64,000 nt of DNA, from positions 3,782,001 through 3,846,000 of the forward strand of contig NZ_CP108006.1 of the NCBI RefSeq assembly GCF_036127095.1. Direction: 5' to 3'. Within the stretch, counting starts at the first letter, position 1. The number at the start of each line of letters is the position of its first letter. The translations under genes and the position numbers were made by a program. The DNA is from Streptomyces sp. NBC_00335 (GTDB lineage: Bacteria > Actinomycetota > Actinomycetes > Streptomycetales > Streptomycetaceae). Below the pieces are notes generated by a model. That model was not told the origin of the DNA. It did not search any database and saw only the letters and a program-made list of their open reading frames with translations. Positions 5,071-27,255 of the stretch are shown piece after piece.

Positions 5071-6987
5071 TCAGGCCGGGCGCAGGTGTGCGGGGGTCGA
5101 CAGGATTCGGGTCATTGCTTCGCGGAGTATGCGCGGGCCGTCCTGGGTGAGGAGGGATTCGGCGTGGAACTGCAGGGAGGAGAAGTGCGGGCCGCGCAGG
5201 GCGTGGACCTCGCCGGTGTGCGGTGAGCGGCTGACCTCCACGATGCCGATGCCCTCGCATTCGGCCTTGTCCTCGTCGCTCCAGGCGGCGAAGGCGTTGT
5301 AGAAGCCGACGCGTTCGCGGCTCCCGAAGAGGTCGATCTCCTTCTGCAAGCCCTGGTTGGGCACGTCGCGCCGTCGCAGGGGAAAGCCGAGGCGGGCGGA
5401 GAGGATCTGGTGGCTGAGGCAGACGGCCAGGAACGGCTGTCCGGCGGCGAGCAGTCGGTCCGTCGCCGCGCTCAGGTGGGTGATCTTCGGGTGGTTCCCG
5501 TCACGCGGGTCTCCCGGTCCCGGGCCCATGACGACGAGGTCGTGGGCGCCGAGCTCGTACGGTTCGTCGTAGCGGCGGACGGTCACGTCCAGGCCCAGCG
5601 CCCGAAGTTGCTGGTCGAGCATGTGCGTGAAGGTGTCCTCGGCGTCGATGACGAGGGCCGTGCGTCCGGCGAGAACCGAGTCCGGGTCTTCGTGACCGGC
5701 GCCGTCGGCGAGCCAGAACCCCGCGATCGTGTCGTTGCGCCGGGCCAGCGCCGTGCTGACGTCGGGATGGTCGGCGAAGCGCGAACGGCGGTCGCTCTCC
5801 AGCGCGTTGAGCAGCCCGGCGGCTTTGGCACGGGTCTCCTCGACCTCGGACTCCGGGTCCGAGTGCCGTACGAGCGTGGCGCCCACGCCGATGCGCAGCC
5901 GGCCGCCGCCGTCGATGTCGGCGGTGCGGATGAGGATCGAGGAGTCGAGGCTGCGCTCACCTGCGTCGTCGTGGCCGATGAGTGCGAGGGCTCCGCTGTA
6001 GTACCCGCGGCCCCCCGGCTCGTGACGGCTGATCACCCGGCAGGCGCTCTCGAGCGGGCTGCCGGTGACGGTGGGCGCGAACATGGTCTCCCGGAGGATG
6101 TCGCGCACGTCGTGGGTGGTGCGGCCCTCGATGAAGTACTCGGTGTGCGCCACCCGGGCCATCTCCCTGAGGTGCGGCCCGGTGACCCTGCAGCCGTCCG
6201 TACAGATCCGGGCCATCATCTTCAGCTCTTCGTCGACGACCATGTACAGCTCGTCGGTTTCCTTGGGGTCCGCGAGGAACTCCATGACGTCGGGCAGGGT
6301 GGGGCCGCTCGCCGGGTAGCGGTAGGTGCCGCTGATCGGGTTCATCACGGCGGTCCCGTCGCGCAGGCTGACGTGCCGCTCGGGGCTGGCGCCGACCAGG
6401 GTCCGGTCCCCGGTGTGTACCAGGTACGTCCAGTACGCGCCCTGCTCGCGTTCCAGCAGCCGCCGGAAGAGGCACAGGGCGTGGGCGAGCGAGTAGTCGG
6501 CGATGTCCGCGACGAGCGAGCGCTGGATGACGAAGTTCGCGCCCTCGCCCGTGCCGATCTCGTCCCTGATCACCCGGCGCACGATCCCGGCGTACGTTTC
6601 GTCGTCCACGTCGAAGTGCTTGCCGGTCAACTCGATCGGTACGTCCGCAATCCGGCGCACCACCTCGGCGACCGTCATCACGGCCTGCTCGGTGACCTCC
6701 ATGGCCAGCAGCGGGGTGCCGTCGTCGGTGCAGGCGAAGCCGCGCTCCGCGATCTGGCGGTAGGGAAGCAGGGCCAGGACCTCGTGCGCGGCCCGCCCCG
6801 GGCCCGCCGGCCGCGTCCGGACCGGCAGCTCCGCCAGTGAACCGAGCCCGGAGACCTCGCCGGTCACCACCTCCAGCAGCCCCGGCCCCACCGTCTCGGG
6901 CCGGTACAGCAGGGCGAAGGGCGGTGGTTTCGCGACCAGGACGCGTGCCAGCAGGTCCTGCGGTTCGGAGGGGGGCACCGAGCTCAT
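5071..6987 (-). CDS. phzE: PhzE-type 2-amino-2-desoxyisochorismate (ADIC) synthase
   Basis: A 638-residue fusion of a chorismate-binding anthranilate-synthase-type domain and a class I glutamine amidotransferase, the PhzE architecture. It should convert chorismate plus glutamine-derived ammonia to ADIC. The synthase half shows DRTLVGASPERHVSL, NPISGTYRYP, MFAPTVTGSPLESACRVI and YYSGALALIGHD. The amidotransferase half shows VVMGPGPGDPRDGNHPK, the nucleophile motif AVCLSHQ and the triad motif LQFHAES. The start at 6987 overlaps the stop of the isochorismatase gene (TGATG), so the two are translationally coupled; longer in-frame extensions would run into that gene. It is the last gene of the leftward operon. 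Because the isochorismatase and a DhbA-type dehydrogenase are next to it while PhzF, PhzA/B and PhzG are absent, its job is more likely 3-hydroxyanthranilate supply than phenazine formation. Confidence 0.9.
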   Translation of the reverse strand: MSSVPPSEPQDLLARVLVAKPPPFALLYRPETVGPGLLEVVTGEVSGLGSLAELPVRTRPAGPGRAAHEVLALLPYRQIAERGFACTDDGTPLLAMEVTEQAVMTVAEVVRRIADVPIELTGKHFDVDDETYAGIVRRVIRDEIGTGEGANFVIQRSLVADIADYSLAHALCLFRRLLEREQGAYWTYLVHTGDRTLVGASPERHVSLRDGTAVMNPISGTYRYPASGPTLPDVMEFLADPKETDELYMVVDEELKMMARICTDGCRVTGPHLREMARVAHTEYFIEGRTTHDVRDILRETMFAPTVTGSPLESACRVISRHEPGGRGYYSGALALIGHDDAGERSLDSSILIRTADIDGGGRLRIGVGATLVRHSDPESEVEETRAKAAGLLNALESDRRSRFADHPDVSTALARRNDTIAGFWLADGAGHEDPDSVLAGRTALVIDAEDTFTHMLDQQLRALGLDVTVRRYDEPYELGAHDLVVMGPGPGDPRDGNHPKITHLSAATDRLLAAGQPFLAVCLSHQILSARLGFPLRRRDVPNQGLQKEIDLFGSRERVGFYNAFAAWSDEDKAECEGIGIVEVSRSPHTGEVHALRGPHFSSLQFHAESLLTQDGPRILREAMTRILSTPAHLRPA

Positions 6988-7640
6988 CACGCCGCCACCA
7001 CCGCGTCGAGCGAGGTGACGAGCGTGTCGGTGGTGAGGACCACCGCGCAGCGCTCGGCCGCGTACTCCAGCGCCATCCGGTGGTACTTCTCCGAGAAGTC
7101 GGCGACCGCGTCGGCGACCAGGAACGTCTCGATGTCGTGGGTGAACGCCTCCACGGCCGTCATCAGTACACCGACGTGCGCGTACACCCCGCACAGGATG
7201 AGCTGGTCACGGCCCGACTCCCGCATCCATTCCAGCAGCCCGGACCGGAAGAAGGCGCTGTAGCGCCGCTTGGTGAACATCCGGTCCCCGGCGGCCGGCG
7301 CCAGTTCGTCGACGACGTGCCGGTCCTCGGGGTCGGTGCGCATCCCCGGGCCCCAGAAGTCCTTCAGCAGTCCTCGCTGCCGCTCGTCCATGCCGCCGGG
7401 CTGCGCCGTGTAGGCCACCGGTATGCCGGATTCGGTGCACCGCTCGCGCAGCCGCACGGCATGGGCGACCAGTTCGTTGTGCGGGGCCCTGCCCGCGGGC
7501 AGCGGCTTGAGGAAGTAGCGCTGCATGTCGTGTACGAGCAGGACCGCGCGGCGCGGGTCCGCCACCCAGGGCGCCGTGTTGCCGGGCAGGTCTCTTTCGG
7601 TGGGCATGGGGTACGAGTGGATGGAGGGTATGCCGGACAT
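6987..7640 (-). CDS. phzD: PhzD-type isochorismatase
   Basis: A 217-residue isochorismatase-fold hydrolase that should split pyruvate from ADIC to give trans-2,3-dihydro-3-hydroxyanthranilate (DHHA). The motifs are those of Phz[14 protein letters not shown] with the catalytic Asp, [14 protein letters not shown] with the conserved Lys, and [17 protein letters not shown], followed by [19 protein letters not shown]. It is full length for a stand-alone isochorismatase and has no C-terminal aryl carrier domain, unlike EntB or DhbB. The start at 7640 has GGGAG six bases upstream. It lies 84 bp after the dehydrogenase gene and overlaps the phzE start. The neighbourhood (DAHP synthase, dehydrogenase, PhzE) makes ADIC, not isochorismate, the probable substrate. 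Confidence 0.9.
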
Positions 7641-7724
7641 GAACGTCTCCCGCGTGATCAGAACTTCCTGTCCGCCGGGCTTCCTTGGCGGCGGCCGGAC
7701 AAAGGCTGTGCGTGCTTGCCGTGG

Positions 7725-8495
7725 TCAGACGCCGAGCGAGGCGCCACCGTCGACGGTGAGGGCGTGCAGCGTGATGTGGGACGCCTGGTCGGAAAGGAGG
7801 AAGGCGACCGAGTCCGCCACGGTGGCGGGGCTGGCGATCCTGCCCAGGGGGATGCCCACGCGGTACGCATCGGGATTGCCCTCGATGGTCCGCCGGCGGT
7901 CGCTCTCGTCCGACCACATCGAGCCGAGCATCGGGGTGTCGGTGGAGCCCGGAGCCACCACGTTGCAGCGGATGCCGTACCGGGCGACCTCCAGGCCCAG
8001 GCACCGGGTGAACATCGTCGCCGCCGCCTTGGAGGCGGCGTAGGCGGCCATGTCCGCGCGGGCCGTCGCCGCCGCGTTCGAGGTCACGGTCACGATCGCT
8101 CCGCGCGAACGCTCGACCATCCCGTTGACCACCGCGCGGGACATGTGGAACACGCCCGTGGTGTTCACCGCGAACGTGTCGGCCCAGTCCTCGTCGGTCA
8201 GCTTGCGCGCCTCGCCGAGCCGCAGCACTCCCGCCGCGTTGACCAGGTACTCCACCGGCCCGAGCCGGTGTTCCACCGCCCCCACGAGCGCCTCTACGGA
8301 CGCGGCGCAGGTCACGTCGACGGGGAACGCCTCGACGGGCAGTCCCTCCGCGGCCAGCTGCCGCACCGTCTCCTCCAGCCGGCCGGCGTCCCTGTCGACC
8401 GCCGCGACCACGACTCCGCGCTCACCCAGGTTGCGGACCACGGCTTCGCCGATCCCGCCCGCCGCCCCGGTGACGATCGCTATCTTGCCTTCCAT
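7725..8495 (-). CDS. DhbA/EntA-type short-chain dehydrogenase (predicted DHHA dehydrogenase)
   Basis: A 256-residue classical SDR with the NAD(P)-binding motif TGAAGGIGEAV at the N-terminus, NAAG, a catalytic Ser (VTVTSNAAATA region) and YAASK. It resembles 2,3-dihydro-2,3-dihydroxybenzoate dehydrogenases, and next to a PhzD/PhzE pair it should oxidise DHHA to 3-hydroxyanthranilate. The start at 8495 is chosen because ACGGAGGT lies eight bases upstream; an upstream in-frame ATG at 8555 has no such site. It lies 65 bp downstream of the DAHP synthase gene in the same operon. The aromatising role is inferred from context; the fold is certain. Confidence 0.85.
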   Translation of the reverse strand: MEGKIAIVTGAAGGIGEAVVRNLGERGVVVAAVDRDAGRLEETVRQLAAEGLPVEAFPVDVTCAASVEALVGAVEHRLGPVEYLVNAAGVLRLGEARKLTDEDWADTFAVNTTGVFHMSRAVVNGMVERSRGAIVTVTSNAAATARADMAAYAASKAAATMFTRCLGLEVARYGIRCNVVAPGSTDTPMLGSMWSDESDRRRTIEGNPDAYRVGIPLGRIASPATVADSVAFLLSDQASHITLHALTVDGGASLGV

Positions 8496-8561: not shown

Positions 8562-9836
8562 TCATCCGCGCCACTCGGCGGCCACCGCGAGGGCCTGCCG
8601 GGGGTTGAGCCGCGGGTCGCACAGACTCGTGTACTTGACGCCGACCTCATCGAGCCGTGCGCTGTCGGCCACGCATTCGGTGACCTCGTCGGGTGTGGTC
8701 TCCAGGTGCAGCCCCCCGGGGACGCCCCCGGCCGCGCGGACCGCCGACCGGAACTCCCCGACCTCGTGCAGGACCGCCTGGACGAACCTGGTCTTCAGGC
8801 CGTCCGGACCGCTGACGGTGTTGCCGTGCATGGGGTCGGTCAGCCAGCCGACCGGGTGGCCGGCCGCGCGGACGGCCTCGACCAGCGGAGGCAGTTTCGC
8901 GGCCACGGCGTCGGCTCCCATCCGCGCGATGAGCGTCAGGCGCCCCGGCTCGCGTGCCGGGTCGAGGCGCTCGCACAGGGCCACCACCTCGTCGGGGGTC
9001 ATCGTCGGCCCGACCTTGCAGGCGACCGGGTTCACCACCTGCGCCAGGAGCGCGACGTGGGCACCGTCCAGCTGCCGCGTGCGCTCGCCGATCCACGGCC
9101 AGTGCGTGGACGTCAGCAGCAGGCGCCCGTCCTCCGTGCGCCGCAGCAGCGGAGCCTCGTAGTCCAGTACGAGCGCCTCGTGGCTCGTCCACACCTTCGA
9201 CCGCGCCCGCGAGCGCACGCGCGGCTCCGACGGCGACCGGAGGGCCGACGGCCCCTGGGCCTGCGCGCCCGGCCATCCGAGGTACTCCATCGCGTTGCTC
9301 GCGGCCTCGTAGCACGCCAGCATCCGGGCGGGGTCGTGGCGGCGGGCCAGCGCGTCGGGCTGCGGACCGTTCACCATGTGCCCGCGGTATACGGGGAGTT
9401 CCTGGTCGCCCACCGGTTCGGTCGGGCGGGAACGCGGCTTGGCGAACTGGCCGGCGATCCGGCCCACCCGCAGGACGGGCTTGCCCGAAGCGAGCTGCAT
9501 CGCCTCCGCGAGCGCGTCGAGCAGGCTCGCCTTGCGCTCCACGTAGCCGGGTGTGCACTCGGCCGGGTCCTCCGCGCAGTCGCCGGCCTGGATCACACCG
9601 GCCTCGCCCGCCGCGACGTGCGCGAGCAGGCCGCGCAACTCTTCCGTGTCCTCGACACGGACCAGCGGGGCCGAGGCGGCGAGCCGCCGCCTCACCCGTA
9701 CGAGCAGCTCCCGGTCCTCCCAGGCGGGCTGCTGCCGCGCCTCCCACGGATCCGGATACGCGCGCTCGTCCCCGGCCGTGCCGCTGAAGCCGGCCGAGGC
9801 AACCAACGTGCCCGATCGGTCGACGATCCCTGACAT
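8562..9836 (-). CDS. class II 3-deoxy-D-arabino-heptulosonate 7-phosphate (DAHP) synthase
   Basis: A 424-residue plant-type DAHP synthase that condenses phosphoenolpyruvate and erythrose 4-phosphate, the first shikimate step. Motifs are AGDCAED near residue 95, AGQFAKPRS, YRGHMVNG, STHWPWIGERTRQLDGAH, NPVACKVGPTM and GWLTDPMHGNTV, with Cys, His and Glu metal ligands of the class II family. The ATG at 9836 is preceded by GGGGGA; the frame remains open upstream but there overlaps the monooxygenase gene. It is a pathway-dedicated copy like PhzC, expected to raise chorismate supply for PhzE. A housekeeping copy would be elsewhere in the genome. Confidence 0.92.
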   Translation of the reverse strand: MSGIVDRSGTLVASAGFSGTAGDERAYPDPWEARQQPAWEDRELLVRVRRRLAASAPLVRVEDTEELRGLLAHVAAGEAGVIQAGDCAEDPAECTPGYVERKASLLDALAEAMQLASGKPVLRVGRIAGQFAKPRSRPTEPVGDQELPVYRGHMVNGPQPDALARRHDPARMLACYEAASNAMEYLGWPGAQAQGPSALRSPSEPRVRSRARSKVWTSHEALVLDYEAPLLRRTEDGRLLLTSTHWPWIGERTRQLDGAHVALLAQVVNPVACKVGPTMTPDEVVALCERLDPAREPGRLTLIARMGADAVAAKLPPLVEAVRAAGHPVGWLTDPMHGNTVSGPDGLKTRFVQAVLHEVGEFRSAVRAAGGVPGGLHLETTPDEVTECVADSARLDEVGVKYTSLCDPRLNPRQALAVAAEWRG

Positions 9837-9877: not shown

Positions 9878-11488
9878 TCAGCCGCCGGTGACCTCCTCCA
9901 GCAGGCCGTCCCACGCGCGGGGCTCCGGCGCCACGTCGCCGCGCCACGCCACGTGGTGGTCGGGCCGGACGAGCACCAGATCGCGCGCCCAGACGGCGCG
10001 CACGTCGGCGCTGTCCACGGTGAGCAGCTCGACCGGCAGTCCCCGGCGCCGCGCCTGCTCCACCAGGTCCTTGCCCCGGTTCTCGCCCGAGAGGTCGACG
10101 AGGGTGAACCCCGTCCCGAGCCGGTCGAACAGCGGTGTGCCGTCCGCCAGCCGCACGTTCGGCGCACGGCCGCCGGGCAGGGTCGTCGGGACGATCGACT
10201 GCCACTCCCAGCCCGGGTCCGGGGTGTCCTCGTGGCGTACGACCGGGGAGCCGGTGTAGCGGTAGCCGAAGTGGATGCCCAGGTTGTCGATCTGGAAGCT
10301 CTCCTTGGCGAGGTACCCCGCGAGCTGGGAGCGGGACGCGCCGGCGGCCGCCAGCTGCGGGAAGCGCATCCACACGGCGAGGAGGTTGGCGCACATCTCG
10401 CGGTTGAAGAGCGCGACGGGCCGGCGCTCGGCCTCGTAGGAGTCGAGCAGACCCGGGCCGGCCCGGCCGGTGAGCGTGGCGGCGAGCTTCCACCCGAGGT
10501 CGACGGCGTCACCGAGGCCGGTGTTCGCCCCGTGCCCGCCGGTCGGGTAGAACTGGTGCGCCGAGTCGCCGGCGAGGAAGACCCGGCCCGCGCGGTACGA
10601 GTCCGCGACGGCGAGGCGCCCGTACCAGTAGGCCACGTTGAGGACCTCGTCGACCTCGAAGTCGAAGCCCAGCCGTTCCTTGACGACCGCGAGCGGCTCG
10701 TCCGGCTCGGGTTCCCCGTCGGGGAGGACGAACGTGCCGGTCCAGGTCCGCCCGCCGTCGCGGTTCACCAGCGTCGCCCCGCCGGCGGCGATGGTGAGGA
10801 AGAACTTCCCGTTCCGGAACAGCGCGGGGTCCTCACTGCGGAAGTACACGTCGCAGTGGCGGGTGCTCGGACCGCTCAGCTGCGTCGTGATGTCCGTGCA
10901 CCGCCGGACCGTGCTGCCGCCGCCGTCGCAGCCGACGACGTAGGCGGCGCGCAGGGTGTGCTCGGTGCCCTGCCCGACGTCGGCCAGGCGCGCCGTCACC
11001 CCTTCGCCGTCGTCCGTCAGGTCCAGCAGGTTCCATCCCTCCCGCAGGTCGACCAGCGGGTGTTCGCGCACCCGTTGGCGCAGCACGTCCTCCAGCAGCG
11101 AGCCCTGGAGCCGCTGGTACGGCTCCAGGGGCGCCGAGCCGTCGGTGACCTCGGCGAACTTCTGGCGCAGCTCCGCCACGGAGGGGTACGTCCACACCGA
11201 GACGGGCGGCTGCGCGGGGTCGGTGATCCAGTGGAAGTCGAAGGGCTCGTCGGCCGCGACACCGCGGCGGCGGATCTCGTCGGTCACACCGAGGCGGCGC
11301 AGCAGTTCCATGCTGCGGCCGTTGATGAAGTCCATCTTGGGATGCGCCGAGACCGTCGTGGACCGCTCGACCACGGTGCTGCGCACTCCGTGGTGGGCCA
11401 GTTCGAGGGCAAGGGTCGCACCGACCGGTCCGGCGCCGACGACCAGGACGGACGCGCTGTCGGGGAGGGACGGGGGATGGTCAAGCAC
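9878..11488 (-). CDS. FAD-dependent aromatic hydroxylase (PheA/TetX-like)
   Basis: A 536-residue class A flavoprotein monooxygenase of the aromatic hydroxylase group. It shows the dinucleotide-binding motif VLVVGAGPVGATLALELA near the N-terminus, the VVGCDGGGSTVRR (DG) motif, the VFLAGDSAHQFYPTGGHGANTGL (GD) region and a C-terminal thioredoxin-like domain. It should hydroxylate an aromatic intermediate or the finished product with NAD(P)H and oxygen. I place the start at GTG 11488 because AGGAG sits six bases upstream; an in-frame ATG at 11590 would translate the direct repeats there. It is the second gene of the leftward operon, 41 bp before the DAHP synthase. Its substrate is unknown. Confidence 0.85.
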   Translation of the reverse strand: MLDHPPSLPDSASVLVVGAGPVGATLALELAHHGVRSTVVERSTTVSAHPKMDFINGRSMELLRRLGVTDEIRRRGVAADEPFDFHWITDPAQPPVSVWTYPSVAELRQKFAEVTDGSAPLEPYQRLQGSLLEDVLRQRVREHPLVDLREGWNLLDLTDDGEGVTARLADVGQGTEHTLRAAYVVGCDGGGSTVRRCTDITTQLSGPSTRHCDVYFRSEDPALFRNGKFFLTIAAGGATLVNRDGGRTWTGTFVLPDGEPEPDEPLAVVKERLGFDFEVDEVLNVAYWYGRLAVADSYRAGRVFLAGDSAHQFYPTGGHGANTGLGDAVDLGWKLAATLTGRAGPGLLDSYEAERRPVALFNREMCANLLAVWMRFPQLAAAGASRSQLAGYLAKESFQIDNLGIHFGYRYTGSPVVRHEDTPDPGWEWQSIVPTTLPGGRAPNVRLADGTPLFDRLGTGFTLVDLSGENRGKDLVEQARRRGLPVELLTVDSADVRAVWARDLVLVRPDHHVAWRGDVAPEPRAWDGLLEEVTGG

Positions 11489-11532
11489 GGATGCTCCTGC
11501 GGGATCGGCACGGGGGAGGTCAACGGGATGGA

Positions 11533-11599
11533 GGGCCGGGTCACGGACACCGGGTCCGGTCCGGGCCGGATCGGGCCGGGTCACGGACACCGGGTCCGG
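11533..11599. repeat. 27-bp direct repeat, two copies 40 bp apart
   Basis: Identical copies at 11533-11559 and 11573-11599 (core GGGTCACGGACACCGGGT) lie in the gap between the exporter and monooxygenase genes of the leftward operon. Each unit contains partly self-complementary GGTCCGG, so the transcript could fold. This gap separates the exporter from the rest of the operon and may modulate their relative expression; that is inference. Confidence 0.7.
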
Positions 11600-13448: not shown

Positions 13449-13931
13449 ATGGTCGTCTTCACTTACACCTTGCTCGTCAACGACCCCCGCCTGCCCGGGT
13501 ACCCGGAGATCCAGCGCGACGAGCTCTGGGAGAGCCTGGTGCACAAGGCGGCCAACCCGGTCTCCTACGTGCCGTCCATCAGCTTCGCGGAGGTGCTGGA
13601 GGAGTTCGACGGCGGTTTCGTGCGGCGCATCGCGCTGCGCGGCGACCAGTCGGTGCTGCTGCGGGAGCGGGTGACCCTCGAGCCGCAGCGGCGCATCGTC
13701 TTCACCCAGATCGACAACCCGCTGCTGACCGCGATCACCAACGAGATCGGCGAGGACGCGGAGGGCCGGCTCACCTTCACGTTCACCGCCACCCTGTCCG
13801 CCGCGGGCCTGGAGCGGAGCCGCCAGGAAGCCGGATTCATCGCGGAGAACGACCTGCTGTTCTACGACACGGCCGCCGCGACGGTGAACACCGTCCGGCT
13901 CACCGCTGGCCGGGCGGTCACCGCGGCCTGA
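13449..13931 (+). CDS. AtaL-like SRPBCC-fold protein (DUF1857), copy 1
   Basis: A 160-residue protein of the AtaL-like SRPBCC (DUF1857) family, small START-type folds with a hydrophobic pocket. Features are the N-terminal TYTLLVND segment, ELWESLVHKAANPVSYVPSI, the central VLEEFDGGFVRRI and LRERVTLEPQRRIVF, and ITNEIGEDAEGRLTFTF. A second family member occurs at 16702-17178 with the same order of motifs. The ATG at 13449 has GAAAGG eight bases upstream. It is transcribed alone and is followed by a strong hairpin. Family members are common in fungal and actinobacterial biosynthetic clusters but the role is not established; binding or cyclising an aromatic intermediate is possible. Confidence 0.75.
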   Translation: MVVFTYTLLVNDPRLPGYPEIQRDELWESLVHKAANPVSYVPSISFAEVLEEFDGGFVRRIALRGDQSVLLRERVTLEPQRRIVFTQIDNPLLTAITNEIGEDAEGRLTFTFTATLSAAGLERSRQEAGFIAENDLLFYDTAAATVNTVRLTAGRAVTAA

Positions 13932-13944
13932 CCGTGGACGTACG

Positions 13945-20548: not shown

Positions 20549-21403
20549 ATGTTCACCAATCTTTCGTTCGGCCGGCGGCTCCGATTGAGGCGCCTGTACG
20601 GAGACGGCGGCGACCGGCTGCTCGTCGTACCACTGGACCACCCCATCAGTGACGGGCCGATCGCCCTGCGAGAAGGCGGACTGGACGCCTTGGTCGGGCA
20701 GCTCACCGACAACGGCGCCGACGCCGTGGTCCTGCACAAGGGCGGGCTGCGCCACGTCAGTCCGGACCGGTTCTCCCGGACCTCGCTGATCGTCCACCTC
20801 AGCGCGAGCACCATGTACGCCCAGGACCCGGACTCCAAGTACCTGGTGAGCGGCGTCGACGAGGCACTGCGGCACGGCGCCGACGCGGTCAGCGTCCACG
20901 TGAACCTCGGTTCGGCCGAGGAGCAGCAGCAGATCACGGACCTCGGCCGCGTGTCGGACCTCTGCGACCAGTGGAACGTCCCGCTGCTCGCCATGATCTA
21001 TCCGCGGGGCCCGAAGGTCACCAATCCACGGGACCCCGAACTCGTCGCCCACGCCATCACCGTGGCAGCCGAACTCGGCGCCGACATCGTCAAGACGCCG
21101 TACGTGGGCTCGCCCGACGAGATGGCGGACGTCGTCAGGTCCGCGGCCATCCCGGTCATCGTCGCCGGCGGCCCGCGCAAGACCACGGTGCCCGACGTAC
21201 TGGCCTACGTGGACGAGGCGCTGCGCGGCGGCGTCAGCGGCTTCGCGATGGGCCGCAACATCTTCCAGGCCGCCGACCCCGGCGCGATGACGCGGCAGAT
21301 CGCGCAGCGCCTGCACCGGCTCCGCGGCGAGGAACTCGGCCTCGGCGATCACCGCCCCACGCAGAACCCGCGCCCGGAGCAGCTGCCGACCCTCGTGGGC
21401 TGA
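20549..21403 (+). CDS. griI: GriI-type aldolase (ADHH phosphate synthase) for 3,4-AHBA
   Basis: A 284-residue class I aldolase of the FbaB/DeoC-like family matching GriI. GriI joins aspartate semialdehyde and dihydroxyacetone phosphate to the C7 precursor of 3-amino-4-hydroxybenzoate. Motifs are LLVVPLDHPISDGP near the N-terminus, LHKGGLRH, SVHVNLGS, AMIYPRG, the Schiff-base segment ADIVKTPYVG, and VIVAGGPRKT plus GFAMGRNIFQ for phosphate binding. I choose the second ATG (20549) because GGGAGGGG lies nine bases upstream, whereas the ATG at 20540 directly abuts it. It heads the rightward operon; griH follows after 54 bp. The pairing with griH makes the assignment strong. Confidence 0.88.
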   Translation: MFTNLSFGRRLRLRRLYGDGGDRLLVVPLDHPISDGPIALREGGLDALVGQLTDNGADAVVLHKGGLRHVSPDRFSRTSLIVHLSASTMYAQDPDSKYLVSGVDEALRHGADAVSVHVNLGSAEEQQQITDLGRVSDLCDQWNVPLLAMIYPRGPKVTNPRDPELVAHAITVAAELGADIVKTPYVGSPDEMADVVRSAAIPVIVAGGPRKTTVPDVLAYVDEALRGGVSGFAMGRNIFQAADPGAMTRQIAQRLHRLRGEELGLGDHRPTQNPRPEQLPTLVG

Positions 21404-21457: not shown

Positions 21458-22564
21458 ATGAAGATCACCTGGCTTGATATCCGCGGTCTCGGCGAATCCA
21501 AGGAAGCGATCCTGCAGGAGGCGCTGCACTACCGCGTCGAAGGCATCGTCGCGGACGACGCCGCCGATCTGGCGGAGCTGCCGCCCACGATCACCAAGGT
21601 CCTCTTCCCGCAGGGCAAGGACCTGCCGGAAGACTTCGGCGACGCGACGGTGGTCGTCGTCGACCCCGCCCGTCACGGTGCGACCACGGCCGAACTGGCC
21701 ATCAAGCACCCCGGAGTGGAGTTCGGCCGCTTCGTGGAGATCATCGACGCGCCGACCCTGGAGGACGCCTGCGAGTCGGCGCGCACCGAGGCGTGGAGCC
21801 TGCTGCTCTTCCGCGACCCCACCAAGATCCCGCTGGAGATCGTCATCGCCGCGGCCGCCCGTGCGACGGGCAGCATGGTCACCATCGCCCAGGACATCGA
21901 GGAAGCGGAGATCATCTTCGGCGTCCTGGAGCACGGCTCGGACGGCGTGATGATGCTGCCCGAGAAGGTCGGTGACGCGGCCAAGCTGAAGGCAGCGGCC
22001 CAGACCGACGTGCCGGACCTCAACCTGACCGAGCTGGAGGTCGTGGAGACCTCGCACATCGGCATGGGTGAGCGGGCGTGCGTGGACACCTGCTCGTACC
22101 TCCGCGAGGACGAGGGCATCCTGGTCGGCTCGCACTCCAAGGGCATGATCCTGTGCGTCAGCGAGACGCACCCGCTGCCCTACATGCCGACCCGCCCGTT
22201 CCGGGTGAACGCCGGCGCCATCCACTCGTACACCCTCTCCAAGGACGAGCGCACCAACTACCTCAGCGAGCTCAAGGCGGGCAGCAAGGTCACGGCCGTC
22301 GACATCAAGGGCCAGACCCGGCTCGTGACCGTCGGCCGGGTCAAGATCGAGTCCCGTCCGCTCATCTCCATCGACGCGGTCGCGCCGAACGGCCAGCGGG
22401 TCAACCTCATCCTGCAGGACGACTGGCACGTGCGGGTGCTCGGCCCCGGCGGCGTCGTGCTCAACAGCACCGAGCTCAAGCCCGGCGACAAGGTGCTCGG
22501 CTACCTGCCGACCGAGGACCGTCACGTCGGTTACCCGATCGACGAGTTCTGCCTCGAGAAGTGA
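21458..22564 (+). CDS. griH: GriH-type 3-amino-4-hydroxybenzoate synthase (DHQ synthase II family)
   Basis: A 368-residue protein of the 3-dehydroquinate synthase II family, matching GriH, which cyclises the GriI product to 3-amino-4-hydroxybenzoate (3,4-AHBA) without the shikimate pathway. Visible conserved segments are KITWLDIRGL at the N-terminus, HGSDGVMMLPEKVGD, LTELEVVETSHIGMGERACVDTCS, GILVGSHSKGMILCVSETH, RPFRVNAGAIHSYTL and LNSTELKPGDKVLGYLP. It is the usual length of the family. GGAGT lies nine bases before ATG 21458. The stop overlaps the GTG start of the next gene by four bases, indicating coupled translation. Confidence 0.9.
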   Translation: MKITWLDIRGLGESKEAILQEALHYRVEGIVADDAADLAELPPTITKVLFPQGKDLPEDFGDATVVVVDPARHGATTAELAIKHPGVEFGRFVEIIDAPTLEDACESARTEAWSLLLFRDPTKIPLEIVIAAAARATGSMVTIAQDIEEAEIIFGVLEHGSDGVMMLPEKVGDAAKLKAAAQTDVPDLNLTELEVVETSHIGMGERACVDTCSYLREDEGILVGSHSKGMILCVSETHPLPYMPTRPFRVNAGAIHSYTLSKDERTNYLSELKAGSKVTAVDIKGQTRLVTVGRVKIESRPLISIDAVAPNGQRVNLILQDDWHVRVLGPGGVVLNSTELKPGDKVLGYLPTEDRHVGYPIDEFCLEK

Positions 22565-23349
22565 GTCCTCACACGCAGGTGGCGGGGACCGAGCGGCGGG
22601 TACTGGATTTCCACGTCCGGCTCGCCCCGGTCCCCCGGGCCCCGGATCGCCTGCTCGCCACGATGGACGAATGCGGCATCGGCCGCGCGGTGGTCTGCGC
22701 GGGCGGCACCATGCCGCTCGCGCAGCTCTCCCGCTTCCTCGTCGAGGGCGGGCACATAGAGTCCGACGCGGACAACGACGCGGTCCTGCGGGCGTGCGAG
22801 GCGTCGGACGGCCGGCTGATCCCGTTCTTCTTCGCCAACCCGCACCGGGATCCGGAGCACTACCGCAAGGCGGCGCCGGACTTCCGCGGCATGGAGATCT
22901 CCCCGGCGGTGCACGGGGTGGCTCTGACCGACCCGCGCACCGCCGGCCTCGTCGAGGCCGCCCGGGACTTCGGGCACAGCGTCTACACCGTCTGTCTGGA
23001 ACGTGACGGCAGCAGGGTCGCCGACCTCGTGTCGCTCGCCCTGCGGTACCCCGAGGTCACCTTCGTCCTCGGGCACGCGGGCATCGGGAACATCGACCTG
23101 TACGCCGTCGAGCTGATCGCCCCGCTGCCGAACGTGCTGCTGGAGACCTCCGGCGGCTACACCTGCGTCGCCCGCGCCGCGGTGGAACAACTCGGAGCGG
23201 ACCGAGTCCTCTTCGGCTCCGAAGCTCCGCTGCAGCACCCCGAGGTGGAGCTGACCAAGCTGCGCCACCTCGGGCTCGGCGACGAAGACTGGCAGAAGAT
23301 CGCGTGGCGCAACGCCTGCCGACTTCTCGGACAGGAGGAAACAGAGTGA
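22561..23349 (+). CDS. amidohydrolase-fold protein, predicted benzoxazole-forming cyclase
   Basis: A 262-residue member of the amidohydrolase 2 (TIM-barrel) family. Visible positions are DFHVR in place of the usual DxH metal site, FANPHRDPEHY, a VLGHAG segment and LFGSEAPLQHPEVE, where the usual catalytic Asp (GSDxP) is Glu. Amidohydrolase-like proteins close the oxazole ring in known benzoxazole pathways, and here the gene sits between griH and an adenylating ligase with GTGA overlaps on both sides. I therefore infer a condensation or cyclisation role rather than hydrolysis or decarboxylation. The GTG at 22561 overlaps the griH stop; a second GTG at 22579 is an alternative. The family is clear but the reaction is inferred. 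Confidence 0.78.
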   Translation: MSPHTQVAGTERRVLDFHVRLAPVPRAPDRLLATMDECGIGRAVVCAGGTMPLAQLSRFLVEGGHIESDADNDAVLRACEASDGRLIPFFFANPHRDPEHYRKAAPDFRGMEISPAVHGVALTDPRTAGLVEAARDFGHSVYTVCLERDGSRVADLVSLALRYPEVTFVLGHAGIGNIDLYAVELIAPLPNVLLETSGGYTCVARAAVEQLGADRVLFGSEAPLQHPEVELTKLRHLGLGDEDWQKIAWRNACRLLGQEETE

Positions 23350-24659
23350 CGACGACGGACAAGCTGCCCCAGCTCGGCGACTGGTCCACCTACGCGGAAC
23401 TGGCCGAGCTGCAACAGGCGATGCTGCCCGGGGTCCTCGCACGGGCCGCCAAGTCGCCCTTCCACCAAGCCCGGACGGGCGGCGACGCGATACCCGGCGA
23501 CCCGGGCGACTTCGCCCGGGTCCCGCTCACCACCAAGTCCGATCTCCGCGACAACTACCCGTTCGGCATGCTGGCGGTGTCCAACAGCGAGCTGGCGACG
23601 TACCACGAGTCCAGCGGATCCACCGGCCAGCCGACCCCCTCCTACTACACCGAGGAGGACTGGGTCGATCTCTCCGAGCGCTTCGCCCGCAAGTGGGTCG
23701 GCATCGACGCCTCGGACACGCTGCTCGTCCGCACCCCGTACGCCATGCTGCTCACCGGACACCTGGCGCACGCGGCGGGCCGGCTGAACGGCGCGACCGT
23801 GGTCCCCGGCGACAACCGCTCGCTGGCCATGCCGTACTCACGGGTGGTCAGGGCCCTGCACGACCTGCGAGTGTCGCTGACCTGGTCGATGCCCACGGAG
23901 TGCCTGCTGTGGGCCGCCGCGGCCAAGGCCGCGGGGCTCCGGCCCGACGAGGACTTCCCCGCGCTGCGCGCGCTGTTCGTCGGCGGCGAGCCGCTGAGCC
24001 CGGCCCGTCGGGCCAGGATCAGCAGGCTGTGGGGCGTGCCGGTGGTGGAGGAGTACGGCTCCACCGAGACCGGAAGCCTGGCCGGCGAGTGCACGGAGGG
24101 CCGCCTGCACCTGTGGGCCGACCGGGTCCTCTTCGAGGTCCGCGACCCGGACACCGGGGAGATCCGCAGGGAGGGCGCGGGGCAGCTCGTCGTCACCCCG
24201 CTCCACCGGGCGGCCATGCCGCTGCTGCGCTACAACCTGGAAGACTCGGTCGAGGTGTCGTACGACCCGTGTCCGTGCGGCTGGGTGCTCCCCACCATCA
24301 CCGTCCTCGGACGGGCCGTCTACGGGCACCGGATCGGCGAAACCCTCGTCACCCAGCACGGGTTGGAAGACCTGGTGTACCGGCTGCCCTTCGAACACGG
24401 GGTGCTGTTCTGGCGCGCGCAGACCGCCTCCGACCACCTGCGGGTCGAGATCGAGGTGGCGGACGAGCACCGGGCCGCCGCGTGCGCCGAGCTGGCCGTC
24501 ACGGTCCGGCAGGAACTGGGCGTGGAGTGCCGGGTCGAGGGAGTCGCCCCGGGAACCCTGGTGCCACAGGACGTGCTGACGGGCATGCCCGATGTCGTCA
24601 AGCCCAGGAGTCTGTTCGGCCCGGACGAGGACTGGAACAAGGCCATCCTCTACTACTGA
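23346..24659 (+). CDS. phenylacetate-CoA-ligase-like adenylating enzyme
   Basis: A 437-residue AMP-forming enzyme of the PaaK-like group, which should activate an aminohydroxybenzoate carboxylate as its adenylate, possibly for direct attack by a second aminohydroxybenzoate. Motifs are YHESSGSTGQPTPSYYTEEDW (P-loop-like), the VVEEYGSTETGSLAGE core, LLRYNLEDSVEV and the Cys pair of CPCGWVLPTITVLGRA, which is a PaaK-type zinc site. The GTG at 23346 has AGGAGG eight bases upstream and overlaps the amidohydrolase stop. No carrier protein or CoA-dependent acyltransferase is nearby, so the adenylate may be used directly. Substrate choice (3-hydroxyanthranilate or 3,4-AHBA) cannot be read from the sequence. 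Confidence 0.85.
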   Translation: MTTTDKLPQLGDWSTYAELAELQQAMLPGVLARAAKSPFHQARTGGDAIPGDPGDFARVPLTTKSDLRDNYPFGMLAVSNSELATYHESSGSTGQPTPSYYTEEDWVDLSERFARKWVGIDASDTLLVRTPYAMLLTGHLAHAAGRLNGATVVPGDNRSLAMPYSRVVRALHDLRVSLTWSMPTECLLWAAAAKAAGLRPDEDFPALRALFVGGEPLSPARRARISRLWGVPVVEEYGSTETGSLAGECTEGRLHLWADRVLFEVRDPDTGEIRREGAGQLVVTPLHRAAMPLLRYNLEDSVEVSYDPCPCGWVLPTITVLGRAVYGHRIGETLVTQHGLEDLVYRLPFEHGVLFWRAQTASDHLRVEIEVADEHRAAACAELAVTVRQELGVECRVEGVAPGTLVPQDVLTGMPDVVKPRSLFGPDEDWNKAILYY

Positions 24660-24683: not shown

Positions 24684-25895
24684 ATGATCCAGGATCGCAT
24701 GCCCCCCCAGTGGAAGCGTGAGGGCAGCCGCATAGCGGTCGTGGGCGCCGGCATCGCCGGCCTCACCGTGGCACTGGCCCTCGGCCGCGCCGGCATCCGC
24801 TGCGAGGTCTTCGAGCAGACGAAGAACCTGCGCGAGGTGGGGGCGGGTCTGCAGCTTGCGCCCAACGCCACCCGCATCTTGCACCAGTTGGGTCTCGCCC
24901 AGCGGCTGAAATCGGTGGCGGTGCGCCCCTCCGCCGTGGAGATGCGCCGCTGGGACGACGGCCGGCTGATCGGCCGAACCGAGCTCGGAGACGCCTGCGA
25001 AGAGCTCTACGAGGCCCCGTACTACACGGTGCACCGGGCCGATCTGCACCAGCAACTGCTCAGCAGCATCGACAACATCCTGCACATCGGCCGTCGGTGC
25101 GTGGGCGTCGAGGAACGGCCGGAGGGGGTACAACTCCGCTTCGAGGACGGCTCCGTGTACGAGGCCGACGTGGTGATCGGCGCCGACGGCATCCACTCCT
25201 TGGTGCGCGACTCCCTCGCCATGGACGAGCCCACCTTCTCCGGCCAGTCGATCTACCGGGGGCTGGTTCCGGGCGATCGGCTGCCGTTCCTCCTGGAGGA
25301 CCCGAAGGTCCGGCTCTGGTTCGGTCCGGAACAGCACGTCGTGTGCTACCCGGTGAGCTCCGGGCGGTGGATCAGCGTCGGGGCCACGGCTCCGGCCGGC
25401 GACTGGTCGGTCGAGGCGTGGACGGCCGAAGGCCGCGTAGAGGAGCTCCTCGAGACCTACCAGGGGTGGAACGAGGAAGTGCACAGCGTCCTCAAGTCCC
25501 TGGATTCCGTGAGCCGGTGGGCCCTGCACGACCGCCGGCCGCTCACGCACTGGTCCACCCCCCGGATCGCGGTCGTCGGGGACGCGGCGCACCCCATGCT
25601 GCCCTTCCAGGCACAGGGCGCCAACCAGGCGATCGAGGACGCGATCGTGCTCGCCGCCTGCCTGCGGGACGTGGCACCGGACGGCATCCCGGCGGCGCTG
25701 GCCCGTTACGAGCAGGCGCGCCGGCCGCGGACCGACGAGCTCCAGCGGCTGTCCCGGGCGAACTCCCGCACCTTCCACCTCTCCGACGGGGAAGGGCAGC
25801 GCGAACGCGACCTGGTCCTGGCCGGCACCCAGAACCTGCGCAAGCAGGACTGGCTGTACGGCTACGACGCGGAGTCGGCCCTCCTCGGGACGTAG
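24684..25895 (+). CDS. salicylate-1-hydroxylase-like FAD monooxygenase
   Basis: A single-component flavin monooxygenase of about 403 residues with RIAVVGAGIAGLTVALALG near the N-terminus, VVIGADGIHSLVR (DG motif) and RIAVVGDAAHPMLPFQAQG (GD motif, with the downstream NQAIEDA). Relatives hydroxylate salicylate-type acids, sometimes with loss of the carboxylate, so either ring hydroxylation or oxidative decarboxylation of an aminohydroxybenzoate is possible. I prefer ATG 24684, which has GAGAG eight bases upstream; GTG 24678 is also possible. It is the last gene of the griI operon, 24 bp after the ligase, and is followed by a strong hairpin. Confidence 0.85.
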   Translation: MIQDRMPPQWKREGSRIAVVGAGIAGLTVALALGRAGIRCEVFEQTKNLREVGAGLQLAPNATRILHQLGLAQRLKSVAVRPSAVEMRRWDDGRLIGRTELGDACEELYEAPYYTVHRADLHQQLLSSIDNILHIGRRCVGVEERPEGVQLRFEDGSVYEADVVIGADGIHSLVRDSLAMDEPTFSGQSIYRGLVPGDRLPFLLEDPKVRLWFGPEQHVVCYPVSSGRWISVGATAPAGDWSVEAWTAEGRVEELLETYQGWNEEVHSVLKSLDSVSRWALHDRRPLTHWSTPRIAVVGDAAHPMLPFQAQGANQAIEDAIVLAACLRDVAPDGIPAALARYEQARRPRTDELQRLSRANSRTFHLSDGEGQRERDLVLAGTQNLRKQDWLYGYDAESALLGT

Positions 25896-25919
25896 CGCGT
25901 CGGACGACCGAGAGCGGCA

Positions 25920-25961
25920 ACGCGACGACGCCGCGGCCCGTGGGCCGCGGCGTCGTTGCGT
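25920..25961. terminator. hairpin terminator after the griI operon
   Basis: A stem of about 20 bp (arms 25920-25939 and 25942-25961, centred on CCGCGGCCC) with one G-T pair and a very short loop lies 25 bp after the monooxygenase stop and 40 bp before the convergent aspartokinase stop. It can terminate both strands. Confidence 0.7.
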
Positions 25962-25991
25962 CGTTGCGTCGTTGCGTCATCGCGTCGTTGC
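25952..25991. repeat. 8-bp tandem repeat GTCGTTGC, five copies
   Basis: Copies begin at 25952, 25960, 25968, 25976 and 25984; the fourth is diverged (GTCATCGC). The first overlaps the 3' arm of the terminator hairpin, so the array probably arose by slippage on that arm. It ends about 10 bp before the aspartokinase stop. Confidence 0.8.
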
Positions 25992-26001
25992 GAGGAAGGC
26001 G

Positions 26002-27255
26002 TCACACAAGGATGCCGGCACCCGCGAGGTCGAACTCCGCGTGCAGCAGCCGCAGGGCCCGCACGTGGTCGCGACTCGGCACGACCACGGAGACGCGCAG
26101 CTGGGAGCTGGACATCCAGCTGGTGACGATCCCCGCACCGTCGAGGACCGTCATCAGACGGGCCAGGTACTCCGGGCGGTTCAGCAGGCCCATGCCGATC
26201 AGCGACACCTTGACGACGTCCGTGTCCACCCGGATGCCGCCGTCGAAGGGAGCAACGGCGTTCGCGAGCGGCTCTTCGATCCGGGAGACGTCACTGCGGC
26301 GCACGGTGAAGCCCATCCGGAACTCGTCCTCCTGCGGACCGGAACGGGCCACGAGATCGGTCGGCACCGCGTTCCCGGCGAGAATGCCGAGGATCTCCGA
26401 AGCCGGATCGCTCCGGCCCTTGCAGTGCACGAGGATCCGCGCGACGTCCGTGTCCGACGTGACGGCGGTGATCGCGCTCCCCGTCTCCAGCAGGCTCGTG
26501 CCGTTCCCGCTCACCACGGTTCCCTCCCTGTCGACCAATGAACTTCTGACGTGCAACTCGACCCCCTTGGCCGCTGCCAGCTCCGCGGACCGGGAGTGCA
26601 GCACCTTCGCCCCCGCGAAGGCCATCTCCACCATGACGTCCGCGGCCACGTGCGGGAGCTTGCGGGCCGACTCGACCAGCCTCGGGTCGGCCGTGTACAC
26701 GCCGTCCACGTCCGTGTAGATCTCGCAGCTCCCGGCGCCCAGGGCCGCCGCGAGCGCGACGGCCGTGGTGTCGGACCCGCCACGGCCCAGGGTGACCACG
26801 TCACCCGTGTCGTTGAGTCCCTGGAAACCCCCGACGACGACCACTCGTTCCTCGTCGAGACACCGCGTGACCCTCCCGGTGTCGATGGAGTCGATCACAC
26901 CGTCCCCGTGCCGTCCGACCGCCCGGATGCCGGCCTGCGCCCCGGTGAGCGAGACGGCCGGCACGCCCAACCGCTCCAGCGCCAGGGCGAGCAACGCCGC
27001 GGAGGCGTACTCGCCCGTGGCCAGCAGTTGGTCGACCTCCCGAGGCGCCCGCCGTGCCGCGTGCCGCCCCCCGATGTCTTCGACCAGGTCCAGCAGCTCG
27101 TCGGTGGTGTCCCCCCGGGCCGACACCACGACCACGGTGCGTTTGCCGGCCCGGCGGCTCGCCGCCACCCGCTCGGACACCCGGCGGAGCCTGTCCGTCT
27201 GGGAGAGAGAACTCCCCCCGTACTTCTGTACCAAGATGCCCAAGGCTGGTCCCAT
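26002..27255 (-). CDS. cluster-dedicated aspartate kinase
   Basis: A 417-residue aspartokinase that phosphorylates aspartate, feeding aspartate semialdehyde to GriI. Motifs are VQKYGGSSLSQTDRL at the N-terminus, VVVSARGDTTDELL, LTGAQAGI, GFQGLND, TLGRGGSDTTAVALA and EIYTDVDGVYTADPRLV. The catalytic half is well conserved, but the C-terminal ACT half departs from the housekeeping form: the usual D-K-P-G loop after the first ACT strand is replaced by CKGRSDPAS. This suggests altered or lost feedback control, as expected for a biosynthetic copy, but is inference. It converges with the griI operon. ATG 27255 is used; the family core begins a few residues later. Confidence 0.88.
   Translation of the reverse strand: MGPALGILVQKYGGSSLSQTDRLRRVSERVAASRRAGKRTVVVVSARGDTTDELLDLVEDIGGRHAARRAPREVDQLLATGEYASAALLALALERLGVPAVSLTGAQAGIRAVGRHGDGVIDSIDTGRVTRCLDEERVVVVGGFQGLNDTGDVVTLGRGGSDTTAVALAAALGAGSCEIYTDVDGVYTADPRLVESARKLPHVAADVMVEMAFAGAKVLHSRSAELAAAKGVELHVRSSLVDREGTVVSGNGTSLLETGSAITAVTSDTDVARILVHCKGRSDPASEILGILAGNAVPTDLVARSGPQEDEFRMGFTVRRSDVSRIEEPLANAVAPFDGGIRVDTDVVKVSLIGMGLLNRPEYLARLMTVLDGAGIVTSWMSSSQLRVSVVVPSRDHVRALRLLHAEFDLAGAGILV

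Follow-up and report, generated by a model that had tools for sequence, protein, structure and literature searches.

A conserved Streptomyces gene block with two aminohydroxybenzoate routes, a NatL2-like ligase and an Amidohydro_2 cyclase: a probable hetero-benzoxazole pathway

INTRODUCTION

For nataxazole, passages of PMC7204872 describe a ligase, NatL2, with a structural zinc at Cys248, His254, Cys308 and Cys310 and with Lys418 in its C-terminal extension, and an amidohydrolase, NatAM, whose canonical metal site is formed by His75 and His77 (the HxH motif of strand 1) and Asp345 (strand 8). Coupling of unlike monomers also has a precedent, as ClxA and PfxC of the closoxazole pathways join 3-amino-4-hydroxybenzoate (3,4-AHBA) with 4-aminobenzoate (passages of PMC12118335 and PMC12519233). 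The 2-arylbenzoxazole nocarbenzoxazole G is produced by Nocardiopsis lucentensis DSM 44048 (passages of PMC8951824). Ahbamycin comes from another 3,4-AHBA cluster, and the words ‘amidohydrolase’, ‘benzoxazole’ and ‘anthranil’ are absent from the main text of PMC10179220. Among the literature matches listed, neither a described cluster that combines the 3,4-AHBA route with a 3-hydroxyanthranilate (3-HAA) route nor its product was recognised; the 2022 closoxazole paper (10.1002/anie.202205409) lay outside their scope.

RESULTS AND DISCUSSION

Gene block and its conservation

The window analysed here is a stretch of 64,000 nucleotides from Streptomyces sp. NBC_00335. It contains a 17-gene block (positions 5071–27255) that carries a 3-HAA route, a 3,4-AHBA route and a ligase/amidohydrolase pair. 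The genes are as follows, with identities given to Streptomyces caniscabiei NE06-02D unless another protein is named:

5071..6987, minus strand: PhzE-like 2-amino-2-deoxyisochorismate synthase, 638 aa (Chorismate_bind and GATase, on the longer ORF; 84.6% identity)
6987..7640, minus: PhzD-like isochorismatase, 217 aa (PF00857, 148.8 bits; 83.9% identity)
7725..8495, minus: DhbA-type SDR/dehydrogenase, 256 aa, predicted 3-HAA maker (TIGR04316, 340.6 bits, cut-off 300)
8562..9836, minus: class II DAHP synthase, 424 aa (PF01474, 421.6 bits; TIGR01358, 402.1 bits, under the cut-off of 614.7)
9878..11590, minus: FMO1, aromatic FAD monooxygenase (PF01494, 243.7 bits, and Rng_hyd_C; NF004780, 469.4 bits, above the cut-off of 445)
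11646..13130, minus: MFS exporter, DHA2/EmrB-like (PF07690; efflux_EmrB, 202.4 bits, under the cut-off of 230.2)
13449..13931, plus: AtaL-like SRPBCC protein, copy 2 (PF08982, 73.1 bits; 86.9% identity)
14010..14744, minus: SDR2, short-chain dehydrogenase (PF13561)
14813..16420, minus: BBE-type FAD oxidase (PF01565 and PF08031), with a Tat-like start, SRRRFL, recognised by eye
16702..17178, plus: AtaL-like SRPBCC protein, copy 1 (PF08982, 65.3 bits)
17270..20101, minus: LuxR/LAL-type regulator (AAA_16 and GerE)
20549..21403, plus: GriI-like aldolase of the 3,4-AHBA route (PF01791; BagB/FevI model, 390.2 bits, below the exception cut-off of 500)
21458..22564, plus: GriH-like 3,4-AHBA synthase (PF01959; BagC/FevH model, 711.6 bits, cut-off 750)
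22561..23349, plus: Amidohydro_2 putative condensing cyclase, 262 aa, with HxH changed to HxR
23346..24659, plus: NatL2-like PaaK-type adenylating ligase, 437 aa, predicted to be ester-forming (601 bits to 6siw, 187 bits to 9s3l; 62.9% identity to NatL2)
24684..25895, plus: FMO2, single-component aromatic hydroxylase (PF01494; best NCBIfam model 3-hydroxybenzoate 6-monooxygenase, 294.5 bits, under the cut-off of 459)
26002..27255, minus: pathway aspartokinase (NF005154, 396.6 bits, above the cut-off of 376)

The seven genes named in the initial annotation (PhzE, PhzD, the DhbA-type SDR, class II DAHP synthase, GriI, GriH and aspartokinase) were all recovered in place as open reading frames and by Pfam/NCBIfam profiles. 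Its observation that NRPS, PKS, carrier-protein, phenoxazinone-synthase and PhzF domains are missing agrees with the Pfam scan of the larger ORFs of the block, in which none was found. In S. caniscabiei NE06-02D the whole block is collinear, with 76–92% identity and different flanks, so it is not a chance assembly. Elsewhere in the NBC_00335 genome, a second set at C1:3478k comprises PhzD and PhzE together with Asn-synthase-like and PhzF-like ORFs identified by eye.

Two monomer routes in one gene run

Both routes are present in 29 of the 45 named loci that encode relatives of the amidohydrolase; for L046, L047, L048, L049, L058, L062, L075 and L078, PhzE was placed beyond the 10-kb flank, for all but L047 on a contig of matching length (presumably matching for L048 and L049), and in L058 GriH was also placed by a further match. 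In 20 loci (19 distinct, as L117 repeats L053), the genes for aspartokinase, GriI, GriH, amidohydrolase, ligase, FMO2, DhbA and PhzD form, in this order, a single-strand run. Gaps within the run are at most 102 bp in 19 of the 20 loci and reach 233 bp in L055, the sequence of which holds unread bases; judged by extrapolated ends, the amidohydrolase and ligase genes overlap in 18 of the 20. One gene run spans both monomer routes in 19 distinct loci besides the window; they are therefore parts of a single pathway, as had been claimed from the window alone, and the two-route combination is a recurrent cluster family in actinobacteria, beyond a single case. Within the window, about 11 kb separate the 3-HAA genes from the 3,4-AHBA genes, and the two groups are encoded on opposite strands, which would fit two unrelated pathways placed side by side. 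However, that explanation is largely refuted by the 19 runs, and the window-type arrangement is itself conserved as one block in S. caniscabiei, which makes it very improbable.

Ligase

With 63% identity to both NatL2 and AjiA1, the ligase belongs to the benzoxazole-ester type; its identity to 9s3l, presumed to be ClxA, is only 32%. It retains the NatL2 zinc ligands (C248, H254, C308 and C310) and K418 of the C-terminal extension, as well as R156, which binds the acceptor carboxylate, T128, T135 and W178 of the acceptor pocket, and E235 of the donor site. Residue 235 separates the ligases of two-route loci (Glu) from those of one-route loci (Asp). The split lies essentially on one deep branch of the tree, and L076 and L079 carry D235 and HxH although a PhzE/PhzD/DhbA set lies about 14–20 kb away; both observations count against a hetero-benzoxazole product. 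L082 may represent a second event at this site, and in the tree comparison a single D235 clade was not rejected (p-AU 0.244). Monophyly of the two-route ligases was neither shown nor rejected (p-AU 0.054; 33 rows with DhbA-only loci and L072), and by these trees NatL2 may have arisen inside or outside this group. The first ligase tree was calculated without L117, L071 and L055, and the later ones, including the monophyly test, also without ClxA, L085, L132, L066, L082, L081, L131 and L128; the D235-clade test omitted L117, L071, L055, ClxA, L085, L081, L131, L128 and the near-copies L047, L057, L061 and L065.

Cyclase

The cyclase is a small Amidohydro_2 barrel, whereas the NatAM type is an Amidohydro_1 protein of about 490 aa. 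Of the benzoxazole ligase/amidohydrolase pair proposed in the initial annotation, the ligase is supported, and the amidohydrolase is not of the type used in nataxazole-like clusters. A NatAM-like Amidohydro_1 protein from L120 had no match in the window at E≤1e-3, and no entry titled NatAM appeared among the sequence matches listed or the best 50 of each fold search; nothing was found in the viral contigs scanned with the cyclase. The solved structures closest to it belong to other hydrolases and to decarboxylases, but its near relatives adjoin NatL2-like ligases, so that the initial annotation's own refuting condition, a best alignment to unrelated catabolic enzymes, comes out even for the cyclase. 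In L088 and L089, the amidohydrolase lies beside GriI, GriH and further ligase matches. Over the stretches compared, a NatAM-like Amidohydro_1 cyclase is present in all six 3-HAA-only loci and in none of the 45 amidohydrolase loci. Cyclase type follows monomer type, which supports the hetero-benzoxazole reading, and by gene company the window cyclase is nearer to the closoxazole/nocarbenzoxazole kind.

The second His of the HxH metal motif is replaced by Arg in the window, where H18-x-R20 aligns with the HxH of relatives, and in all 29 two-route loci; HxR is also present in L118 and L119. It occurs too in L066, L082 and L132, in whose compared stretches no PhzE, PhzD or DhbA-type gene is found, which counts against the hetero-benzoxazole reading. 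A rule that HxR appears only with 3-HAA genes was rejected, as it is broken by these three loci and conversely by L076 and L079. At the position of an Asp in 3cjp the window has Glu221, and the strand-1 stretch of this alignment scores about zero bits. The canonical metal-dependent amidohydrolase site (HxH plus the strand-8 Asp) is not intact in the window cyclase. H118, H172, E221 and Q225 are invariant in the 36 sequences of the fold alignment, which comprised the window cyclase and those of 35 named loci; of the 45, L055, L062, L066, L071, L084 and L086 were set aside as overlong, broken or unusual, and L048, L054, L057 and L065 as close to sequences already included. The cyclase tree was built without L084, L086, L055, L071, L066 and L117–L132. 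The lost metal His might indicate a changed or a dead cyclase.

Predicted pathway and alternative products

The product is probably a hetero-benzoxazole of 3-HAA and 3,4-AHBA, in one orientation or the other. In the pathway that we infer, 3-HAA would be made from chorismate by DAHP synthase, PhzE, PhzD and the DhbA-type dehydrogenase, and 3,4-AHBA from aspartate semialdehyde and dihydroxyacetone phosphate by aspartokinase, GriI and GriH. The NatL2-like ligase would adenylate one acid and form an ester with the phenol group of the second; 3-HAA is the likeliest acid to be activated and 3,4-AHBA the likeliest partner. The Amidohydro_2 cyclase would convert the unstable ester into a benzoxazole. 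The predicted core, 2-(2-amino-3-hydroxyphenyl)-1,3-benzoxazole-5-carboxylic acid (C14H10N2O4), may then be hydroxylated by FMO1 and FMO2; the BBE oxidase perhaps oxidises the product outside the cell, and the MFS protein would export it. Since the monomers are isomers, hetero- and homodimers are inseparable by mass in LC-MS (all m/z 271.07). Two observations count against the hetero-benzoxazole: PhzE copies besides the block's own are present in the same genome, and in P. fallax, which the authors of PMC12118335 believe to make 3-HAA natively, every closoxazole observed contained 3,4-AHBA and none a different acid in its place. Boxazomycin was considered as a product class and set aside; passages of PMC6387500 and PMC12029548 contain no structure of it.

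3-HAA is probably the acyl donor, and we give this orientation about double the probability of the opposite one, in which adenylated 3,4-AHBA would couple with the phenol group of 3-HAA to form 2-(3-amino-4-hydroxyphenyl)benzoxazole-4-carboxylate. The reverse orientation, included in the hetero-benzoxazole reading, is by itself rather unlikely. E235 is shared by the ligases of four bagremycin-like loci, which presumably use 3,4-AHBA as the donor, so that this residue is a weak orientation marker and loses force as proof of a 3-HAA donor; G211/G212 was abandoned as an indicator of 3,4-AHBA as the acceptor because the 3-HAA-only controls L120 and L123 have it too. Both points favour the reverse orientation, whereas two others oppose it: near E235 the window has S238, the residue of NatL2, which is Cys in the four bagremycin-like ligases, and its cyclase is of a type that accompanies 3,4-AHBA, while 3-HAA acceptors go with the NatAM type.

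Other products would depart from the hetero-benzoxazole altogether. A benzoxazole homodimer of 3,4-AHBA, with 3-HAA as a third unit (ester or amide) or in a separate tailoring branch, would resemble the closoxazoles, in which such a core is extended by another, third aryl acid; PfxC itself is able to attach an acid of this kind at the amine (passages of PMC12118335). Moreover, over the stretches compared, 10 of the 45 loci have the pair but lack PhzE, PhzD and DhbA-type genes. However, closoxazole clusters have a second ligase, whereas the sole other ligase relative in this genome (E≤1e-10) is only 36% identical and lies at C1:7742209 (7.74 Mb), and site 235 differs between two-route and one-route ligases; we consider the homodimer improbable. 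Slightly less credible still is an ester or amide dimer left by a cyclase that has lost a metal ligand. The consistent HxR of the two-route loci, L118 and L119 fits such a product, and without NatAM the NatL2 ester rearranges to an amide (passages of PMC7204872), but the cyclase gene is kept, in overlap with the ligase gene (by extrapolated ends) in 18 of the 20 run loci, and its four invariant residues are intact.

A bolder and rather unlikely proposal is that two-route clusters are extant links connecting two groups of benzoxazole pathways, those built on 3,4-AHBA (closoxazole/nocarbenzoxazole) and those built on 3-HAA (nataxazole). Hetero-benzoxazoles would then be made by one ligase whose donor site has been re-tuned, and the HxR cyclase may work with a rearranged or absent metal centre, reading the 3-HAA ring by its Arg; NatL2-type pathways would then descend from two-route clusters by cyclase replacement. 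The family predicts a recurrent class of unsymmetrical benzoxazoles, without description in the literature searched, and offers naturally occurring ligases and cyclases that differ in their choice of monomer. Ligase site 235 and the HxH-to-HxR change open two questions to direct tests on small enzymes and a pair of simple acids, namely how such pairs select their monomers and whether a condensing amidohydrolase needs a full metal site.

Comparison with known systems

The block differs from phenazine clusters, in which PhzF accompanies PhzE and PhzD, as its scanned ORFs contain no PhzF domain. GriI, GriH and the ligase score on the models of the bagremycin/ferroverdin proteins BagB, BagC and BagE, but all three remain below the NCBIfam cut-offs (390.2/500, 711.6/750 and 575.5/800 bits, respectively). 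The bagremycin-like locus L127 has an aromatic lyase, whereas none is present among the scanned ORFs of the block, and the four bagremycin-like loci show no cyclase of the window's kind in the stretches compared.

The closoxazole clusters of Clostridium cavendishii (clx) and Pyxidicoccus fallax (pfx) share with the window a GriI/GriH-like route, an AMP ligase and an amidohydrolase (passages of PMC12118335). They have a second AMP ligase (ClxC/PfxA) where the block has one, and the 3-HAA route, FMOs, BBE oxidase and SDR are extra in the window. In Nocardiopsis lucentensis DSM 44048 (candidate locus L070 plus contig C600), the cyclase and ligase are each about 58% identical to those of the window and GriI, GriH and aspartokinase are likewise present; such a relative in a 2-arylbenzoxazole producer counts for the hetero-benzoxazole reading. 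This locus differs in having D235 and an intact HxH, with ALDH-like and Zn-ADH genes upstream, and its genome has no PhzE at E≤1e-60. With the nataxazole/A33853/caboxamycin/AJI9561 kind (NatL2 plus NatAM), the window shares the NatL2-like ester-forming PaaK-type ligase and the 3-HAA genes (PhzE, PhzD, DhbA-type SDR and DAHP synthase), but it also has GriI/GriH, and its cyclase is of the Amidohydro_2 family in place of a NatAM-like Amidohydro_1 protein.

Gene content and limits of the cluster

The initial annotation had described a biosynthetic cluster combining two routes to aminohydroxybenzoates, and every gene that it named was found in the window with an open reading frame. Pfam and NCBIfam assignments of chosen ORFs added a pair of FAD monooxygenases, one further SDR, an MFS exporter, a regulator of the LuxR/LAL type, an SRPBCC gene resembling AtaL and a BBE-type oxidase, the start of which (SRRRFL) was judged by eye to be Tat-like. 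One more gene was detected through comparison with Streptomyces caniscabiei NE06-02D (G247):

13449–13931, second AtaL-like gene

When 23 window proteins were compared by tblastn with 40 kb of G247, a single collinear block from PhzE to aspartokinase was found (76–92% identity). The left neighbors in the window (DISARM genes and a small ORF) and the right neighbors (hydrolase, DNA polymerase III subunit, thymidylate kinase and topoisomerase) had no match in these 40 kb at E ≤ 1e-8. Since G247 keeps the block without the flanking genes of the window, the cluster corresponds to 5071–27255, and the limits first proposed were borne out.

The DISARM-type genes (128–4119) adjoin the left side of the cluster; DrmA (C-terminal part) scored 847.9 bits, below the cut-off of 950, and DrmB scored 464.6 bits, above the cut-off of 240. 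The host genome (G000) comprises 9.0 Mb in two contigs, with the window at C1:3782001–3846000. A second DAHPS-DhbA-PhzD-PhzE set is located at C1:6345–6356 kb (L154; 64–71% to the set of the window), accompanied by a BBE oxidase that is 52% identical to that of the window. At C1:3478–3489 kb (L155), PhzD-PhzE genes occur with Asn-synthase-like and PhzF-like ORFs, judged by eye, and this is probably a phenazine cluster.

Distribution of the cluster family

A profile from six cyclases (A2), scanned over a named genome collection, returned 45 loci, which were typed with the proteins of the window, PhzE being placed separately where the flank was too short. Both routes, to 3-hydroxyanthranilate (3-HAA) and to 3-amino-4-hydroxybenzoate (3,4-AHBA), are present in 29 of the 45 loci, with hosts that include Streptomyces, Phytohabitans, Actinomadura, Micromonospora, Actinocorallia, Saccharothrix, Actinoplanes and Rhodococcus. 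Three loci (L060, L065 and L071) contain the DhbA-type SDR without PhzE/PhzD in the examined stretch, two (L076 and L079) contain 3,4-AHBA genes with a DAHPS-DhbA-PhzD-PhzE set about 14–20 kb away, and one (L072) was counted separately. The cyclase-ligase pair without a PhzE, PhzD or DhbA-type gene in the examined stretch was found in 10 loci (L066, L069, L070, L073, L077, L080, L082, L085, L088 and L089); at E ≤ 1e-60, PhzE is absent from six of these genomes (L066, L069, L070, L077, L080 and L085) and located elsewhere in the genome in the remaining four. Within the genus, 23 of 392 genomes have a ligase match at E ≤ 1e-60, and five (G000, G247, G378, G332 and G336) carry both routes.

Several loci show individual features. 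In a sub-lineage formed by L060, L065, G047 and G104, the DhbA-type SDR is located beside FMO2, and PhzE/PhzD are not nearby; PhzD homologues occur elsewhere in these genomes (about 700 kb off in G047 and about 1 Mb in G104), and an aromatic prenyltransferase gene is found near the cluster in G047. In the genomes of L076 and L079 (L147–L152), about a dozen other genes accompany the DAHPS-DhbA-PhzD-PhzE set in both, and the gene sets 14–20 kb apart form either one large cluster or two neighbors. The two-route cluster of Nocardiopsis sp. JB363 (L081:15502–17576) contains a UbiX-like (PF02441) and UbiD pair directly behind PhzD, which suggests a decarboxylated benzoxazole as the product. In Streptacidiphilus sp. 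4-A2 (L086), several two-route cluster genes give split, frameshift-like matches, corresponding to either decay or sequencing error.

One pathway or two

In the window itself, the 3-HAA genes are arranged divergently from the 3,4-AHBA genes and the pair. In 20 loci (19 distinct), aspartokinase, GriI, GriH, cyclase, ligase, FMO2, DhbA and PhzD follow in this order on one strand. The gaps within this run, extrapolated from tblastn ends, are at most 102 bp in 19 of the 20 loci, with many genes overlapping; in L055, the sequence of which contains unread bases, they reach 233 bp. Through these one-strand runs, the 3-HAA genes are linked both to the 3,4-AHBA genes and to the ligase and cyclase, a stronger tie than anything within the window provides. 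From gene order, we infer that both routes form one pathway and not two.

The ligase

Compared with solved structures, the ligase of the window scored 601 bits against NatL2 of nataxazole biosynthesis (6siw), 595 against AjiA1 (6wuq) and 187 against 9s3l, which we take to be the closoxazole enzyme ClxA (its chain title is phenylacetate-CoA ligase and does not name ClxA). Identity is 62.9% to NatL2, 63.0% to AjiA1, 32.4% to 9s3l, 58.2% to the Nocardiopsis lucentensis ligase, and 57.0% and 55.8% to the bagremycin-like ligases of L127 and L129. Among the NatL2 residues described in excerpts of PMC7204872, the Zn ligands, R156, T128, T135, W178, E235 and K418 are retained, and A211/A212 are replaced by G/G and T243 by S. 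In NatL2, E235 touches the 3-hydroxyl of the 3-HAA donor (PMC7204872, excerpt). Glu occupies this site in all 29 two-route loci, in 3/3 DhbA-only loci and in L072, and Asp in 10/10 one-route loci, L076 and L079. Glu was also found in six 3-HAA-only control loci, as expected, and in four bagremycin-like loci, so its value as a donor marker is limited. In trees, one clade with 100/100 support holds the two-route, NatL2-type and bagremycin-like ligases, and the sampled Asp ligases fall outside it, except that of L082, which has no 3-HAA genes nearby. Its Asp would be a second, independent change at site 235; a single Asp clade was not rejected by the tree test (p-AU 0.244).

Proposed chemistry

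Chorismate is converted by PhzE to ADIC, by PhzD to dihydro-hydroxyanthranilate and by a DhbA-type SDR to 3-HAA, and GriI and GriH form 3,4-AHBA from aspartate semialdehyde and DHAP. By homology, the corresponding proteins of the window would supply the two monomers from these same precursors. FMO1, FMO2, SDR2, BBE and the AtaL-like proteins are putative tailoring enzymes. By analogy to NatL2/NatAM and PfxC/PfxB (PMC7204872 and PMC12118335, excerpts), the ligase and cyclase would form an ester that is then dehydrated; ClxD is reported to act on an amide instead (PMC12118335). We moderately favor 3-HAA as donor and 3,4-AHBA as acceptor over the reverse orientation, given the resemblance of the donor side to NatL2 and the association of this kind of cyclase with 3,4-AHBA. 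A precedent for hetero-coupling is the acceptance of 4-aminobenzoate by ClxA and PfxC (excerpts of PMC12118335 and PMC12519233). From P. fallax, thought to produce 3-HAA, closoxazoles containing any acid besides 3,4-AHBA were not obtained (PMC12118335), which counts against easy monomer mixing.

The initial annotation had proposed detection of the product by LC-MS. 3-HAA and 3,4-AHBA are isomers (each C7H7NO3), so the hetero-benzoxazole and both homodimers share one formula, with [M+H]+ 271.07 for every benzoxazole dimer (m/z 271.0716 for the 3-HAA homodimer, PMC7204872, and 271.07 for the 3,4-AHBA homodimer, PMC12118335, both excerpted). Mass alone thus cannot tell them apart; labelled feeding or standards can.

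Comparison with known systems

Among the literature matches listed, no described cluster with both routes was recognized. Only PMC12118335 combined 'biosynthetic gene cluster' with both monomer names, and the clusters described in its excerpts are 3,4-AHBA ones only. The 2022 closoxazole paper is said there to report a wider survey, in which the two-route family may already have been drawn.

A producer of a known 2-arylbenzoxazole, nocarbenzoxazole G, is N. lucentensis DSM 44048; the compound was synthesized from a 4-hydroxy-3-nitrobenzoic compound, with reduction of an ester to the alcohol as the last step (PMC8951824, excerpt). One contig of its genome contains ALDH-like and zinc-ADH genes followed by cyclase and ligase (L070), and another contains aspartokinase-GriI-GriH with a BBE-like gene (L153) and, judged by eye, tyrosinase-like and SARP-like ORFs; PhzE was not found in the genome at E ≤ 1e-60. 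The genes listed on these two contigs are likely those for nocarbenzoxazole. Because the producer has the pair and aspartokinase-GriI-GriH without PhzE, the link drawn here is that its pair is likely the nocarbenzoxazole synthase, which supports benzoxazole chemistry for the cluster family.
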